A stretch of 64,000 nt of DNA from Streptomyces lydicus. GTDB lineage: Bacteria; Actinomycetota; Actinomycetes; Streptomycetales; Streptomycetaceae. The stretch is taken from positions 372,001 to 436,000 of the forward strand of contig NZ_CP017157.1 in the NCBI RefSeq assembly GCF_001729485.1, given 5' to 3'. The first letter of the stretch is position 1. Each line of letters opens with the position of its first letter. Under the pieces are notes generated by a model that made no database searches, had not been told where the DNA came from, and saw only the letters and a list, made by a program, of their open reading frames with translations. A program made the translations under genes and the position numbers. Of the stretch, positions 12,615 to 19,374 are shown one piece after another.

Positions 12615-13790
12615 ATGGCTGCGTCGATGGATGTGGGCCTCAAGCGGGAGCTGGAGGCGAAGGTCCACGCCGGGGAGCGGCTGACCCGCGAGGACGGCAT
12701 CGCCCTCTACGAGTCCGACGACCTGGCCTGGCTGGGCGGCCTCGCGCACGAGGTGCGCACCCGCAAGAACGGCGACGTCGTCCACTTCAACGTCAACCGT
12801 CACCTCAACATGACGAACGTGTGCACCGCGTCGTGCGCCTACTGCTCCTTCCAGCGCAAGCCGGGCGAGAAGGACGCGTACACGATGCGCATCGAGGAGG
12901 CCGTCCGCCTCGCCAAGGCGATGGAGAACGAGAACCTCACCGAGCTGCACATCGTCAACGGTCTGCACCCGACCCTGCCGTGGCGCTACTACCCGCGCTC
13001 GCTGCGCGAGTTGAAGAAGGCCCTGCCGAACGTCTCGCTGAAGGCGTTCACCGCCACCGAGATCCACCACTTCGAGACCATCTCGGGCCTGTCCGCCTCG
13101 GAGATCCTCGACGAGCTGATCGACGCCGGCCTGGAGTCGCTCACCGGCGGCGGCGCCGAGATCTTCGACTGGGAGGTCCGGCAGCACATCGTCGACCACG
13201 CCACCCACTGGGAGGACTGGTCGCGGATCCACCGCCTCGCGCACGAAAAGGGCCTCAAGACGCCCTCGACCATGCTCTACGGGCACATCGAGGAGCCCCG
13301 CCACCGCGTCGACCACGTGCTGCGGCTGCGCGAACTCCAGGACGAGACCGGCGGCTTCCAGGTCTTCATCCCGCTGCGCTACCAGCACGACTTCGTCGAC
13401 ATGCAGGACGGCAAGGTCCGCAACCGCCTCCAGGCGCGGACGACGATGGCCACCGGTGCCGAGGCGCTCAAGGTCTTCGCGGTCTCCCGTCTCCTCTTCG
13501 ACAACGTCCCGCACGTCAAGTGCTTCTGGGTGATGCACGGTCTGCAGACCACACAGCTCGCCCTCCAGCACGGCGCGGACGACATGGACGGCTCGGTCGT
13601 CGAGTACAAGATCACGCACGACGCGGACAACTACGGCACGCCGAACAAGCTGACGCGGGACGACCTGCTGGAGCTGATCCGCGACGCCGGCTTCCGCCCC
13701 GTCGAGCGCAACACCCGCTACGAGGCCATCCGCGAGTACCCGGGCCCGGACCCGGACCGCCGCGAGTCGCCCCAGCCGATGCGCGTCTGA
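12615..13790 (+). CDS. mqnE: Aminofutalosine synthase MqnE (radical SAM)
   Basis: A 391-residue radical SAM enzyme with the CxxxCxxC cluster motif at Cys70, Cys74 and Cys77 (NVCTASCAYCSF). It joins the MqnA product to SAM-derived adenosyl radical, giving aminofutalosine. It is distinguished from MqnC by ELHIVNGLHPTLPW, LTGGGAEIFDWEVRQH and the C-terminal THDADNYGTPNKLTRDDLLELI block. The ATG at 12615 follows GGGAGG; a second in-frame ATG four codons later is also possible. It has its own 246-base upstream region and is therefore probably a separate transcription unit. Confidence 0.95.
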   Translation: MAASMDVGLKRELEAKVHAGERLTREDGIALYESDDLAWLGGLAHEVRTRKNGDVVHFNVNRHLNMTNVCTASCAYCSFQRKPGEKDAYTMRIEEAVRLAKAMENENLTELHIVNGLHPTLPWRYYPRSLRELKKALPNVSLKAFTATEIHHFETISGLSASEILDELIDAGLESLTGGGAEIFDWEVRQHIVDHATHWEDWSRIHRLAHEKGLKTPSTMLYGHIEEPRHRVDHVLRLRELQDETGGFQVFIPLRYQHDFVDMQDGKVRNRLQARTTMATGAEALKVFAVSRLLFDNVPHVKCFWVMHGLQTTQLALQHGADDMDGSVVEYKITHDADNYGTPNKLTRDDLLELIRDAGFRPVERNTRYEAIREYPGPDPDRRESPQPMRV

Positions 13791-13835
13791 GCAGGTCGGA
13801 ACGGTCTGTCAGTGGCGGGCGTTAGGGTCCGGGTC

Positions 13836-14360
13836 ATGAACGTGCGTTTCGACCTGGACCCCGCCGTCACCCCCGAACTCCACGACGGTCTGTGTGAGTT
13901 GTGGACCGAGGTGTCCGACGCGGGCGGCGCGGTCGGCTTCGTCCCGCCGGTGACGCGCGAGGACATACGCCCCGACCTGCTCAGGAAGCTGACGGCGCTG
14001 GCCGAGGGGCGCGAGCGGCTGCTGGTCGGGCGCGACGAGGCCGGCCGGGTGGTGGCGACCGCGTACCTCGCCCCCAGCCCCCACCGCCTGATGAAGCACT
14101 GGATCTGGGTCTACACCGTCATGGTGCACCCCTCGCTCCAGGGGCAGGGCATCGGCCGGCAGCTGATGGCGGCCGTCGCGGAGGCCGCCCGCACCTTCGA
14201 CGGCGTCACGGCCATCCGCCTGACCTGCCGCGGCGGCACCGGCGCCCGCCGGTTCTACGAAGCCTGCGGCTACAAGGAGGTCGGCCGGGTGCCCGGCGCG
14301 ATCAAGGTCGCCGACGGTGACTTCCGCGACGACATCACCCTGTGGCTGGAGCTGGGCTGA
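13836..14360 (+). CDS. GNAT-family N-acetyltransferase
   Basis: A 174-residue GNAT acetyltransferase. The acetyl-CoA loop is VHPSLQGQGIGRQLM (Q/R-x-x-G-x-G/A type), followed by the RLTCRGGTGARRFYEACGY strand and helix typical of small-molecule GNATs. Start choice: TAGGGT at 13823-13828 lies seven bases before the ATG and no SD is present, so it is probably leaderless; a longer start at 13812 would overlap this promoter. The substrate is unknown. Confidence 0.88.
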   Translation: MNVRFDLDPAVTPELHDGLCELWTEVSDAGGAVGFVPPVTREDIRPDLLRKLTALAEGRERLLVGRDEAGRVVATAYLAPSPHRLMKHWIWVYTVMVHPSLQGQGIGRQLMAAVAEAARTFDGVTAIRLTCRGGTGARRFYEACGYKEVGRVPGAIKVADGDFRDDITLWLELG

Positions 14361-14501
14361 GGAGCGGCGGGGGAGGCCCGGCGACGGTGTCCCGGTGGCG
14401 GCGGCCGGTGACCCGGAGCCGGGGGCCCGGAAGATCACCTGTGCCGTGTGCTTGACTGGAGGGCGAGCCTTTCGGTTGCCGTTGAGAAGAAGGTCCCGTC
14501 C

Positions 14502-14792
14502 GTGAGTAGCCCCAAGTTCGCCACGCTCCGCTACACCGCCCTTCGCATCGGCCTCTTCGTCGCCTGCTTCGCCGTGGTGTGGGGGCTGGCCTACGTCCAC
14601 GTCATCCCGCTCGCGGTGGGCGCGTCCAACACCGTGTGGCTGCTGCTGCTGGCCATCGTGATCTCCGCGCCGCTCAGCTTCGTGCTGCTGCGCAAGCAGC
14701 GCGATGCGATGTCCGAGCAGATCGTCGCCAAGGTCGACCGCCAGCGTGAGCGGATCGCGGCCAACGCCAGCCAGGAGGACGGCCTGCAGTAG
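14502..14792 (+). CDS. DUF4229-type small membrane protein
   Basis: A 96-residue protein with two membrane segments: LRIGLFVACFAVVWGLAYV and NTVWLLLLAIVISAPLSFVLL. A charged C-terminal tail (RKQRDAMSEQIVAKVDRQRERI) follows. The pattern matches DUF4229. The GTG at 14502 is preceded by GAGAAGAAGG. Function is unknown; it is an actinobacterial core small membrane protein. Confidence 0.82.
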   Translation: MSSPKFATLRYTALRIGLFVACFAVVWGLAYVHVIPLAVGASNTVWLLLLAIVISAPLSFVLLRKQRDAMSEQIVAKVDRQRERIAANASQEDGLQ

Positions 14793-14891
14793 GGCGTGCC
14801 GCCCGCGCCGCGCGCAGCCCCTTCCGTCCCTCTCCGCAGGCGTCCCTTTTCCGCCGTTTCTGTAAGACGCCTCACAGTCGCCGTACGCGCC

Positions 14892-14935
14892 ACGGGCGCC
14901 CGTTGATGGAGTTCCGCTCCATGAACGGGCGCCTG
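14892..14935 (+). terminator. Strong terminator after the DUF4229 gene
   Basis: Two 20-base arms (14892-14911 and 14916-14935) with two mismatches and a five-base loop (TTCCG). It separates the DUF4229 gene from the cysteine-leader/symporter unit. Confidence 0.8.
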
Positions 14936-14978
14936 TCGCGTTGTTGGGGGTGCATTCGTCCGGTCCGCCCCCGCCGAT

Positions 14979-14998
14979 CCCAAAGATTTTCTTTGGGT
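14979..14998 (+). promoter_or_regulatory. Perfect palindrome over the -35 of the leader-peptide promoter
   Basis: CCCAAAGA-TTT-TCTTTGGG is an exact 8-bp inverted repeat at 14979-14997. It overlaps a TTGGGT -35 (14993-14998) which, with an 18-base spacer, faces TAACGT (15017-15022), seven bases before the GTG at 15030. A second, overlapping repeat is CTTTG-N7-CAAAG (14991-15007). This looks like a repressor operator. Confidence 0.55.
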
Positions 14999-15029
14999 TC
15001 CTCAAAGTTCAAGTGTTAACGTACTTGTC

Positions 15030-15134
15030 GTGAAGACAGCAGCCGCGCCCCCGTCCCCCATGAGCGTTCCGCTCGTGGCGCGCCTGCACGTCGATCTTTG
15101 CCGCTGTATGTCCGCGGCCTGTTGTCGCCGCTGA
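15030..15134 (+). CDS. Cysteine-rich leader peptide upstream of the symporter
   Basis: A short ORF of 34 residues if it starts leaderless at the GTG 15030, or 24 if it starts at the ATG 15060. It ends in ARLHVDLCRCMSAACCRR. Four cysteines fall in the last 11 residues, including a Cys-Cys pair just before the stop. This resembles the short actinobacterial leader peptides with an HVDLCR core, and the polycysteine uORFs shown in mycobacteria to act as cysteine-responsive attenuators. The TAACGT/TTGGGT promoter places the transcription start at about 15030; no SD precedes 15060. A stem-loop begins 12 bases after the stop. Inference: ribosome stalling at Cys codons sets expression of the downstream transporter. 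Confidence 0.72.
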   Translation: MKTAAAPPSPMSVPLVARLHVDLCRCMSAACCRR

Positions 15135-15146
15135 CCGATCTGATCC

Positions 15147-15188
15147 AGCGGCCGGAGATCCTGACGGAAGTACGGACCTCCTGGCGCT
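15147..15188 (+). promoter_or_regulatory. Stem-loop between leader peptide and symporter (candidate attenuator)
   Basis: The arms 15147-15161 and 15174-15188 pair at 12 of 15 positions with a 12-base loop. It sits between the leader stop (15134) and the symporter SD (GGAG at 15224). No U tract follows directly, so Rho-dependent or translational control is as likely as intrinsic termination. Confidence 0.4.
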
Positions 15189-15235
15189 CGTCCACGCCGT
15201 TTTCCGACGTTTCACCTGTCCCCGGAGTGTGTCCG

Positions 15236-16588
15236 TTGTCCACGTCTGCCGAGACCTCTGAGTCCTCACAGGCCCCCCAGACCCCGAAGTCCCGCATACC
15301 CAAGGTCCCGTTCTGGGCCCAGATCCTGATCGGCCTCGCCCTGGGCGTGCTGCTCGGCGGGATCGCCAAGAACGGTGACCTCGGCTGGCTCACCTCGACG
15401 CTCCAGCACATCGGCGATCTCTTCGTCCAGCTGCTGAAGCTGGCCGTCGCGCCGCTGGTGTTCTTCGCGATCCTGGTGTCGATCACCAACCTGCGGCAGG
15501 TCAACAACGCCGCCCGGCTCGCCACCCGCACCCTGCTGTGGTTCATGGCCACCTCGCTGATCGCGGTGGCGATCGGCCTGGCGATCGGTCTGCTGACCAA
15601 CCCGGGCGCGGGCACCGGCCTGACCCCCAAGGACGGCAAGCTCCCCGAGCACGCGGGTTCCTGGATCGACTTCCTGACCGGCATCGTCCCCACCGACGTC
15701 GTCACGCCGTTCACCGAGCTCAACGTCCTGCAGATCGTCTTCATGGCGGCCGTCGCCGGTATCGCCGCGCTCCAGCTGGGGGAGAAGGCCGAGCCGGTCC
15801 TCAAGATCAGCCGCTCGGTGCTGGAGCTGCTGCAGAAGGCCCTGTGGTGGGTCATCCGCCTCGCCCCGATCGGCACCGTCGGCCTCATCGGCAACGCCAT
15901 CGCGACGTACGGCTGGAACCTCATCGGCAAGTACGCGACGTTCACCCTCGACATCTACGTCGGCTGCGCGATCGTCCTGTTCGGCGTCTACCCGCTGCTT
16001 CTCTCGACCGTCGCCAAGGTCAACCCGCTGCAGTTCTTCCGCGGCGCCTGGCCCGCCATCCAGCTGGCCTTCGTGTCCCGCTCGTCGGTCGGCACCATGC
16101 CGGTCACCCAGCAGGTCACCGAGCGCCTCGGCGTGCCGCGGGAGTACGCCTCCTTCGCGGTGCCGTTCGGCTCGACGACGAAGATGGACGGCTGCGCCTC
16201 GATCTACCCGGCGATCGCCGCGATCTTCATCGCCCAGATCTTCGGCGTCCACCTCGGCATCGGCGACTACATCCTGATCGTCTTCGTCTCGGTCATCGGC
16301 TCCGCCGCCACCGCGGGCCTGACCGGCGCGACCGTCATGCTGACGCTGACCCTCTCGACGCTGGGCCTGCCCCTGGAGGGCGTCGGTCTGCTGATGGCCA
16401 TCGACCCGATCCTGGACATGATGCGGACGGCCACCAACGTCGCCGGTCAGTCGGTCATCCCGATCCTGGTCTCCGCCAAGGAGAAGATCCTGGACCGCGA
16501 CGCGTACGCCGGCGCCACGAGCATCAGCTTGGACGCGGCGACCGTCGAGGTCGCCGAGGAGAAGGTCCCGGCGACCGCTGCTGCCTGA
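15236..16588 (+). CDS. Dicarboxylate/amino acid:cation symporter (DAACS family)
   Basis: A roughly 450-residue DAACS (GltP/DctA/TcyP) transporter. Signatures are the serine-rich re-entrant loop FVSRSSVGTMPVTQQ, the FGSTTKMDGCASIYPA block and the substrate-site helix DPILDMMRTATNVAGQS. Start: TTG at 15236 with GGAG (15224-15227) eight bases upstream; the ORF is open further back, but the extra part overlaps the leader region. The family transports glutamate, aspartate, C4-dicarboxylates or, in TcyP, cystine. The Cys-rich leader upstream favours a sulfur-related substrate such as cystine, but this is inference. Its last eight codons lie inside a 149-bp repeat. Confidence 0.88.
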   Translation: MSTSAETSESSQAPQTPKSRIPKVPFWAQILIGLALGVLLGGIAKNGDLGWLTSTLQHIGDLFVQLLKLAVAPLVFFAILVSITNLRQVNNAARLATRTLLWFMATSLIAVAIGLAIGLLTNPGAGTGLTPKDGKLPEHAGSWIDFLTGIVPTDVVTPFTELNVLQIVFMAAVAGIAALQLGEKAEPVLKISRSVLELLQKALWWVIRLAPIGTVGLIGNAIATYGWNLIGKYATFTLDIYVGCAIVLFGVYPLLLSTVAKVNPLQFFRGAWPAIQLAFVSRSSVGTMPVTQQVTERLGVPREYASFAVPFGSTTKMDGCASIYPAIAAIFIAQIFGVHLGIGDYILIVFVSVIGSAATAGLTGATVMLTLTLSTLGLPLEGVGLLMAIDPILDMMRTATNVAGQSVIPILVSAKEKILDRDAYAGATSISLDAATVEVAEEKVPATAAA

Positions 16589-16713
16589 CCTGATCTCACG
16601 GATGCGCCCCGGCCTGCTCTGCAGGGCCGGGGCGCATTGGTGTGTGCTGCCGGAGGCGTTCGTTCGGCTGCGGATCAGACTGCGGGCCGGCTGTCGACGC
16701 AGCAGGCGTCACC
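16565..16713 (+). repeat. 149-bp direct repeat, copy 1
   Basis: It is identical to 18829-18978 except for one G missing in a run (CTGCGGGCC here, CTGCGGGGCC in copy 2). It contains the last symporter codons, the shared terminator, and 70-odd bases which on the minus strand encode the end of ArsI. Read from copy 1, that tail would be ...DACCVDSRPAV and stop. Confidence 0.97.
16602..16637. terminator. Terminator of the symporter gene (inside repeat copy 1)
   Basis: A perfect 13-bp stem (ATGCGCCCCGGCC at 16602-16614 and its complement at 16625-16637) with a 10-base loop. The same hairpin is repeated in copy 2 at about 18866-18901. Confidence 0.88.
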
Positions 16714-18600: not shown

Positions 18601-19374
18601 TCACCTCACGTGTGTTTGCCGCTTGGAAGGGTGTGAGCACGGATGCGTACAACTGCCGTGCTCACACCCTGATGGCACCTGCGGGCCTTGGTATCCGGGG
18701 GATTGCGCGCCAGCACGGCCACGATCAACGCAGGTTGACGCGGCCCGCCAGCCAGGTTGCTGGACTTCAGGCCCGCCCCCTTGTCCTGAAGGCGGCGGGT
18801 CGTCTTCAGTAATGCCCAGCCCTGACCCGTCCCGGCGACCGCTGCTGCCTGACCTGATCTCACGGATGCGCCCCGGCCTGCTCTGCAGGGCCGGGGCGCA
18901 TTGGTGTGTGCTGCCGGAGGCGTTCGTTCGGCTGCGGATCAGACTGCGGGGCCGGCTGTCGACGCAGCAGGCGTCACCTTCCTGGGCGGGGGACTTGCCC
19001 ATTCGGTCCGCGTCGCCCTTGACGACGTAGATCTCCCAGGGTTCCTTGCCGGGGCCGTGGACCCAGACCTTGTCCTGGAGGGCGTAGCAGCAGGAGGTGT
19101 CGTTCTCCTCGAAGGTCGCCAGCCCGGCTGCCTTGAGGCGGTCGGTGGCGACGGTGACCTGCTCGGTGGTGGCGACCTCGACGCCGAGGTGGTCCAGGCG
19201 GGTTTCCTGGCCGGCGTCGCCTTCGATCAGGACGAGCTTCAGCGGCGGTTCGGTGAGGGCGAAGTTCGCGTAACCGGGGCGGCGCTTGGCCGGCCGGGCG
19301 CCGAAGAGCTTGGAGTAGAACTCCACCGCGGCGTCGAGGTCGGGGACGTTGAGAGCGAGTTGGAGGCGGGGCAC
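18601..19374 (-). CDS. arsI: ArsI/CadI-family C-As lyase, C-terminus altered by frameshift
   Basis: A glyoxalase/VOC-fold enzyme of the ArsI/CadI family; ArsI is an Fe(II)-dependent dioxygenase that removes methyl groups from trivalent organoarsenicals. Residues 1-140 match the family: start PRLQLALNVPDLDAAVEFY, LDHLGVEVATTEQV, and the paired-Cys site TSCCYALQDKVWVHGP (Cys95-Cys96), with a second pair in DACC near 136. The GTG at 19374 has GGGAGG upstream. At residue ~142 an extra G (run 18948-18951) changes the frame: instead of ending RPAV, the ORF continues 115 residues through repeat copy 2, the terminator and insert DNA. The core enzyme should be intact; the tail is probably junk. Confidence 0.85.
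   Translation of the reverse strand: MPRLQLALNVPDLDAAVEFYSKLFGARPAKRRPGYANFALTEPPLKLVLIEGDAGQETRLDHLGVEVATTEQVTVATDRLKAAGLATFEENDTSCCYALQDKVWVHGPGKEPWEIYVVKGDADRMGKSPAQEGDACCVDSRPRSLIRSRTNASGSTHQCAPALQSRPGRIREIRSGSSGRRDGSGLGITEDDPPPSGQGGGPEVQQPGWRAASTCVDRGRAGAQSPGYQGPQVPSGCEHGSCTHPCSHPSKRQTHVR
18629..18669 (+). terminator. Terminator after the 121-residue orphan gene
   Basis: A perfect 14-bp stem (GGGTGTGAGCACGG at 18629-18642, complement at 18656-18669) with a 13-base loop, 48 bases after the stop. Confidence 0.75.
18829..18978 (+). repeat. 150-bp direct repeat, copy 2 (in the 3' part of arsI)
   Basis: Same sequence as 16565-16713 with one extra G at 18948-18951. It contains the last eight symporter codons out of context, the terminator hairpin, and the codons for the ArsI tail. 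Confidence 0.97.

Follow-up and report, generated by a model that had tools for sequence, protein, structure and literature searches.

The subject of this analysis is a short leader open reading frame (ORF) and the DAACS symporter gene that it precedes, both situated in a stretch of 64,000 nucleotides (nt) of the Streptomyces lydicus genome (assembly GCF_001729485.1, contig NZ_CP017157.1, positions 372,001 to 436,000 of the forward strand), hereafter called the window, to which all positions refer (Table 1). The reading frame of the symporter is open from 15098, and its best start is a TTG located 8 nt past a GGAG; the product scores 355.9 bits with Pfam SDF against a gathering score of 27.9. 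The leader stop lies 101 nt ahead of this likely start, while the -10 hexamer of the promoter ends 7 nt ahead of the leader GTG. A preliminary description of the region had pointed to a short ORF with four Cys among its last 11 residues ahead of the symporter, and direct reading of the region confirms it. Only two of these Cys stand side by side (CRCMSAACC), and the end of the ORF, RLHVDLCRCMSAAC, agrees with the motif RxH[VI]DLxRxxSAxC.

Table 1. Features of the leader and symporter region of the window.
Feature	Position (nt)	Strand	Description and basis
Operator-like element	14981..15007	+	CAAAG-N5-CTTTG-N7-CAAAG over the -35 region; conserved spacing
Promoter	14993..15022	+	-35 TTGGGT 14993-14998, 18-nt spacer, -10 TAACGT 15017-15022; conserved block
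Leader peptide ORF	15030..15134	+	GTG 15030 to TGA 15134, 34 amino acids (aa), MKTAAAPPSPMSVPLVARLHVDLCRCMSAACCRR; C-terminal part LHVDLCRCMSAACCRR
HVDL codons	15087..15098	+	Core of the conserved nascent-peptide motif; 45 distinct leaders
TGT (UGU) Cys codon	15120..15122	+	11 residues past the motif His; proposed sensing codon; codon counts
Segment 1	15127..15133	+	GCCGCUG, last part of the leader; can pair with CAGCGGC in segment 2; weak
Segment 2	15146..15161	+	CAGCGGCCGGAGAUCC, 5' hairpin arm; in 24 sequences chosen by its core
Segment 3	15170..15188	+	GUACGGACCUCCUGGCGCU, 3' hairpin arm and anti-Shine-Dalgarno (ACGGAC/CUCC); predicted pairing
Segment 4	15224..15236	+	GGAGUGUGUCCGU, Shine-Dalgarno (GGAG 15224-15227) and spacer to the start codon; 3:4 in the predicted fold
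DAACS (Pfam SDF) symporter, TcyP-type candidate	15236..16588	+	450 aa from TTG; PF00375 3.6e-106

Conservation of the leader was followed in two Streptomyces samples, which have species in common, and in two sets from outside the genus. Sample 1 consists of 80 loci gathered using the symporter as query. For sample 2, 150 genomes were drawn, 102 of which contain the symporter (103 matches, the partial match G085:C144 omitted); 102 loci were fetched, the window's own locus included, among them one at a contig end (L210) and one partial hit (L211), whose region opens inside the leader end (CMSAVCCREL). Outside the genus, 29 loci stem from within the family and 39 from within the class beyond the family (40 matches, the contig-end match G286 not fetched). 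The leader lies ahead of the symporter homologue at 79 of the 80 loci of sample 1, with L056 as the exception, and at 96/102 loci of sample 2, 12/29 family loci and 28/39 class loci. The first of these counts was made with a looser motif, H[VIL][DEN][LMVI], without a control run of its own, the other three with a motif found in only 2 of 1570 random 760-nt windows taken from sample 1 loci; a strict motif gives 96/102, 12/29 and 26/39, with 0/1570 in the same control. It should be added that one locus in each genus count (L049 in sample 1, L143 in sample 2) displays HVDL with an altered, longer end. A chance ORF is ruled out by this conservation (79/80 and 96/102 against 2/1570). The preliminary description had proposed a comparison with homologous symporters in other Streptomyces, and upstream of these the leader frame is indeed kept. 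Within the genus, the codons for H, D, L and R differ in their third bases only, and among 45 distinct leaders from outside the genus and from paralogues in the S. lydicus genome, R, D and L are found in 45, H in 42 and V in 37, again with variable third bases; outside the genus, codons vary in every motif column but one. Since third bases vary while the amino acids stay constant, the leader is very probably translated. The core conserved throughout the class is RxH[VI]DL plus one TGT-encoded Cys.

Among known elements, the leader most resembles the NCBIfam family NF042934, a cis-regulatory attenuator entry (cis_reg_atten) named 'putative leader peptide', with which it shares the core RxHVDLxRxxSAxC, the short ORF and UGU at the last motif Cys; the family has members ahead of sulfur genes, and the symporter here is a predicted carrier of a sulfur compound. 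The window leader itself does not reach the cut-off of 27 bits, scoring 22.2 bits in its 34-aa form and 20.2 bits in a 24-aa form. However, of ten orthologous leaders scanned, four pass the cut-off and all ten match at E <0.01, and on the strength of these profile matches we regard the window leader as a divergent relative of NF042934. A search of the S. lydicus genome with the same profile returned nine members above cut-off besides the window leader (here at 21.0 bits). Six of the nine precede sulfur genes, namely those for SfnG (dimethylsulfone monooxygenase), a ThiS-like protein with cysteine synthase, an SsuA-type binding protein, a protein of the cysteine dioxygenase family (Pfam CDO_I), a nitrite/sulfite reductase and a rhodanese-type sulfurtransferase; two others precede genes for a flavin reductase and a GST-like protein, and behind the last one (L092) no gene was found within the 1.5 kb examined. 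At E 1e-4, a member is present in 79 of 118 genomes of the class and in 0 of 14 control genomes, while a very lax threshold gives weak matches in 10 of the 14 controls, none above cut-off. The leader ahead of the cysteine dioxygenase-family gene (L090, 1483-1569) belongs to a subtype, RRVH[LM]DLxRYAGCxCRP, that also occurs at L331, L334-L336, L339 and L340; a gene for cysteine breakdown is an odd partner for a starvation-induced switch.

Leaderless polycysteine short ORFs were reportedly described in mycobacteria by Canestrari et al. in 2020 (cited in PMC13236596), and the families NF042936 (Ms4527A) and NF042933 (Ms5788A) are, as we assume, related to them. The window leader resembles these in that its transcript is probably leaderless, Cys codons lie close to its stop and its target is presumably cysteine-related, and it gives weak profile matches. 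It differs from them in the absence of a long Cys run, in its score (16.3 bits with NF042936 against a cut-off of 45) and in its target, a transporter instead of a biosynthetic operon. The kinship with known Cys leader peptides suggested in the preliminary description is thus borne out, most clearly by the NF042934 profile and more weakly by the mycobacterial ones. Its characterization of the leader as Cys-rich holds for the window peptide, but does not extend to the family: many class leaders, for example RLHVDLRRQASSACPA, contain no Cys beyond the conserved one, and 'polycysteine' therefore misfits the family as a whole. A cysteine uORF with attenuator features, uORFC-8-2, has also been reported ahead of cysS in Rhodobacterales (PMC8632094); in contrast to the window leader, it uses tandem Cys codons with UGC dominant and a U-tract terminator, and the HVDL motif is not described in the excerpt of that paper available to us.

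A strikingly strict constraint on the leader is found at the level of a single codon. At the Cys 11 residues past the motif His (+11), TGT is used in 101 of 104 leaders of the genus, 12/12 of the family and 28/28 of the class, which adds up to 141/144 symporter leaders; as three loci of the genus enter this total twice, the corrected figure is 138/141. In comparison, TGT makes up 118 of 886 Cys codons (13%) in long ORFs of the sample 1 loci and the window. The three exceptions use TGC and comprise L155, L199, whose leader contains a repeated stretch, and L143, where the end is changed and the residue is probably not the same Cys. The 45 distinct sequences from outside the genus and from paralogues all show TGT (45/45), while the Cys at +4 behaves otherwise, with TGC in 67 of 76 distinct genus sequences. 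The same holds for NF042934 members: in the best 30 loci of the class search, all 27 parsed leaders carry TGT (L292, L310 and L311 could not be properly parsed), with 47 TGC vs 13 TGT at their other Cys codons; in the next 40 matches, six of which were parsed after widening the motif, the codon is TGT in 40/40, with 32 TGC vs 3 TGT at other Cys codons of the first 34. Taken together, TGT occupies this site in 67/67 parsed leaders of 70 loci. Eight of the nine own-genome paralogues have a Cys at +11, always TGT, and only the ninth (L095) has no Cys there. The near-invariance of one codon at one fixed place suggests that it acts as the sensor, as far as codon statistics can tell; an RNA-level cause for the U at the third base is conceivable, although the flanking bases vary. 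What is new here is the strict TGT constraint on the last Cys of the motif, plus a new target for a known type of device. Our partial literature search, NF042934-related work included, found nothing on HVDL leaders or a fixed UGU codon, which is no proof of their being unpublished. Selective charging of isoacceptors, a leading theory of attenuator codon choice (PMC1183508), would not explain the choice of UGU if these bacteria have just one tRNA species for cysteine. A published list of S. lividans attenuators, in the part available to us (PMC8079986), contains eight leader peptides, none of them cysteine-dependent.

The codon data also bear on the idea that the peptide acts in trans as a small Cys-rich protein, for example in metal binding, instead of as a sensor in cis. 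Residue conservation does appear to exceed what a plain codon-counting attenuator would need, as this idea would predict; many class leaders, however, have a single Cys, it is the codon, not just the amino acid, that hardly changes at one position, and related leaders directly precede different sulfur genes, which together make a function in trans highly improbable.

We therefore consider it very likely that expression of the symporter is under cysteine-responsive control by the leader. The fuller interpretation, control of a TcyP-type symporter for a sulfur amino acid, most likely cystine, by a cysteine-responsive leader-peptide attenuator belonging to a genome-wide set of related leaders, appears likely to us on the sequence evidence. 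The observations behind it are the conservation of leader frame, motif and TGT, the position of related leaders ahead of cysteine and sulfur genes and the induction of the S. coelicolor orthologue together with the cysteine pathway. Most likely, this is a known kind of device, namely a ribosome-mediated cysteine attenuator. Transcription would start at the first codon of the leader, where the ribosome would also enter. With plentiful Cys-tRNA the ribosome would pass the leader quickly, while a shortage of Cys-tRNA would lead to a pause at UGU 15120, with nascent RLHVDLCR in the exit tunnel.

The binding loop of the window symporter (KMDGCASIYPAI) has GCA, an extra residue and YPA in common with TcyP (QNGCAGLYPAM), in contrast to GltP (NLDGS-TLYQS) and to the chains 9bgz and 3v8g (both NMDGTA-LYQG). 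Likewise, the motif (D/E)PxxDM is present as IDPILDM in the window and VEPLIDM in TcyP, vs VDRILDM, IDRILDM and IDAILDM in GltP, 9bgz and 3v8g, respectively. KMDGCA[AS][IV]Y is found in 163 of 164 symporters read, from samples that overlap. We infer that this loop signature sets the substrate and defines a TcyP subfamily, the latter from one TcyP sequence. E. coli TcyP (YdjN) is annotated as a cystine/sulfocysteine symporter, and the excerpt of PMC4383340 describes both YdjN and B. subtilis TcyP as cystine importers of the same family. The substrate is accordingly taken to be, probably, cystine or a close sulfur analogue. The claim of the preliminary description that the carrier imports a cystine-type compound gains support from the signature shared with TcyP, but its further statement that this function is not normally annotated for DAACS carriers does not hold, since the family already has known cystine importers in B. 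subtilis TcyP and E. coli YdjN. According to the same excerpt, ydjN was proposed to belong to the Cys regulon in E. coli, where a CysB motif and not a leader peptide is named for it (PMC4383340). An ordinary aspartate/glutamate or C4-dicarboxylate carrier, tied to sulfur status for some other reason, would fit the top NCBIfam scores, which go to DctA and GltP (both far under cut-off), the closest solved relatives, which are aspartate transporters, and the name gltP given to SCO4498 in the part of a review available to us. Since the one-residue insertion of GCA-x-x-YPA and the P of (D/E)PxxDM occur as in TcyP and not as in GltP, 9bgz or 3v8g, and in view of the near-universal KMDGCA[AS][IV]Y and the sulfur co-induction, we deem this assignment improbable.

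This co-induction is documented for SCO4498 of S. coelicolor. In the published material available to us from a study of HbpS-SenS-SenR (PMC4991794), SCO4498 is up 12.3-fold by RNA-seq after H2O2 treatment, and the same table contains ssuABC, cysN, cysD, cysC, cysH, cysI, cysA (SCO4164), cysM (SCO2910), metI and metN. A 22-mer published as lying 13 nt before the SCO4498 start was found in 1 of 392 genomes of the genus, at a locus with the promoter element, a leader (C-terminal part LHVDLCRCASANCRP) with TGT at +11 and an ATG 13 nt past the 22-mer. The 22-mer, found beside the leader and a symporter 79.6% identical to that of the window over 427 residues, together with the window's upstream neighbour at 12615, MqnE by a model that carries the name of SCO4494 (mena_SCO4494), confirms SCO4498 as the orthologue. 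Its induction may reflect cysteine shortage, with H2O2 depleting thiols.

How a paused ribosome would be converted into symporter expression is less clear-cut. In the window's clade, it would mask segment 1, so that segments 2 and 3 pair, the anti-Shine-Dalgarno is occupied and translation of the symporter can begin; if the ribosome does not pause, 1:2 and 3:4 would form and the start site would be masked. The principle is the one known from the trp attenuator, except that a start-site sequestrator replaces the terminator. Control codons and four segments with alternative pairing (1:2/3:4 or 2:3) are common to both, but the region here has no intrinsic terminator, its segment 4 is the Shine-Dalgarno region and thermodynamic support is weak. 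Indeed, 14500-15700 contains 0 terminator-like sites and no U-tract follows the hairpin, so that a trp-type transcription attenuator with an intrinsic terminator does not fit. Rfam gave only two matches, both under the gathering score and both outside the leader. In predicted folds, the partner of segment 3 is segment 2 if the hairpin is folded alone, and segment 4 once this is present; the full-length fold combines leader:segment 2 with 3:4, and deletion of the RNA up to 15113 favours 2:3. When the RNA is free from 15135, however, 3:4 wins, and the model therefore works only if 2:3 is trapped kinetically ahead of the transcription of segment 4. Across 24 sequences (window included), selected by the segment 2 core GGCCGGA, i.e. 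for having the first hairpin arm, the second arm changes little and the loop is variable, and mean duplex z-scores against shuffles are -1.06 for 1:2, -1.92 for 2:3 and -1.17 for 3:4; 3:4 pairing is lost in L007 and L110. The hairpin arms of the window's clade hardly vary, so that covariation gives no proper test. In a larger clade, 36 of 38 loci fold into a stem-loop with both arms, but these loci were cut out by a pattern requiring both arms, and since the consensus pairs hardly vary, this stem-loop is not independent evidence. We hence put forward the particular four-segment switch, which derives from modelled folds, only tentatively.

The same sensor could act on a different output, in that with ample cysteine the ribosome would leave at the leader stop, Rho would load on the C-rich, G-poor spacer and transcription would end, while upon shortage a stalled ribosome or an altered RNA fold would block termination. 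The lack of an intrinsic terminator in the region, the many spacers that look C-rich by eye, those of hairpin-free loci included, and the published induction of SCO4498 at the mRNA level are in line with this route, which was also proposed for mycobacterial cys leaders by Seliverstov et al. (PMC1262725, in the part available to us). The candidate motifs are not conserved according to the same paper, however, and GGAG-TGTGTCC at the start site recurs in many loci, as start-site control would predict, leaving Rho-dependent termination a conceivable but doubtful output.

Upstream of the leader, the promoter raises the question of a second layer of control. The -10 hexamer and the following start codon are 7 nt apart in 61 of 70 parsed loci of sample 1 and 70 of 82 of sample 2, and this spacing predicts that the transcript is probably leaderless, starting at the first codon of the leader peptide. 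At L203 and L056, the same promoter is followed immediately by the ATG of the symporter, an arrangement in keeping with a transcript that begins at the first codon. The promoter had been called well-formed in the preliminary description; it is a conserved block in relatives, but a generic promoter consensus scan of the region did not report it. TAnnnT is given as the S. lividans -10 consensus in the excerpted text of PMC8079986. In many relatives, the CAAAG-N5-CTTTG-N7-CAAAG block followed by GTGTTAACGT precedes the leader, with exact spacing at 67/80 and 77/102 loci of the genus samples, 5/29 of the family outside the genus and 0/39 of the class outside the family. The palindrome inside it, CTTTG-N7-CAAAG, has a single occurrence in the 8.2 Mb genome, at this locus, but a reversed control pattern likewise occurs once, so that rarity alone carries little weight. 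A transcription factor on this element, for example a putative neighbouring TetR-type regulator, could exert the main control, with the leader being auxiliary: conservation of the element extends over the genus and includes loci from which the leader is absent, TetR-family genes (Pfam TetR_N) lie downstream of the symporter at L013 (4463-5170), L043 (6007-6714) and L060 (4330-5028), comparable to SCO4499 beside SCO4498, and SCO4499 (TetR) was induced together with SCO4498 (PMC4991794, same material). Given that the leader is under amino-acid-level constraint at 79/80 loci and reaches 28/39 class loci where the element reaches 0/39, we consider it unlikely that such a factor dominates, but both layers may act together. 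In the ORF list of the window, no TetR counterpart was noticed directly downstream of the symporter. At L128, promoter block and hairpin arms are kept while HVDL is lost (RLPAGLCRCRCRRRCRSAACRR), a variant that may serve to test the motif naturally.

Several observations weigh against our interpretation. No leader is recognisable at 17 of the 29 family loci outside the genus, and L056, L126 and L203 (with intact element) as well as L196 (nearly intact) have the promoter block without a leader before the symporter; given these loci, the leader is dispensable in some lineages. In overall identity, the symporter is no closer to TcyP (31%, 149 bits) than to GltP (30%, 166 bits). With regard to SCO4498, the H2O2 table also lists genes with no obvious link to sulfur, the increase by qRT-PCR was just 2.5-fold, and the authors ascribe the induction to SenR (PMC4991794, same material); moreover, the induction was seen in mRNA, for which a switch acting on translation only gives no direct explanation. 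As to the RNA, the attenuator-like hairpin of the preliminary description (15147-15188) does fold at -19.3 kcal/mol, but taken alone it is within chance for its composition (z -1.11; 25 of 200 shuffled sequences fold equally well), and the hairpin element CAGYGG after the leader is missing at 22 of 79 genus loci. Equilibrium folding of 79 sequences yields a mean Shine-Dalgarno opening of 0.17 free and 0.20 stalled, and in the window 0.02 free and 0.01 with a ribosome stalled at UGU. A general release of the Shine-Dalgarno by the stalled ribosome is thus unsupported, with opening by >0.2 in 8 of the 79 and closing in 2; six of the eight gains (L060, L062, L065, L070, L074 and L075) belong to loci without the hairpin element. 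In these models, the RNA output switch is weakly supported, and the sensor part is much firmer than the output part.

For the surroundings, the upstream neighbours at 12615-14792 encode MqnE (aminofutalosine synthase), a GNAT protein and a DUF4229 protein, and at L008 the symporter has similar ORFs upstream. A perfect direct repeat of 122 nt (16565-16686 and 18829-18950, 2264 nt apart) has its first copy starting inside the final 24 nt of the symporter's coding sequence and looks like a downstream insertion or duplication. ARAGORN found no tRNA gene in the window.

Beyond the single locus, HVDL leaders might represent class-wide codon-specific sensors, a hybrid of arrest peptide and amino-acid attenuator, a view that we offer as a possibility somewhat short of even chances. 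RxH[VI]DLxR would then reside in the exit tunnel exactly as the single UGU enters the A site, so that decoding of this wobble-read codon becomes rate-limiting and steeply dependent on Cys-tRNA, and one Cys codon would suffice, whereas classical attenuators count several. Such sensors would coordinate cysteine synthesis, the use of sulfonates and sulfones and cystine uptake in Actinomycetes. With a near-fixed UGU, often the sole Cys codon, beside a fixed nascent peptide, a change of TGT to TGC is predicted to break the sensor while the peptide stays unchanged. For Streptomyces, a DAACS symporter present in 102 of 150 sampled genomes gains a likely substrate class and a regulatory input, which offers a reason for the co-induction of SCO4498 with cysteine genes.

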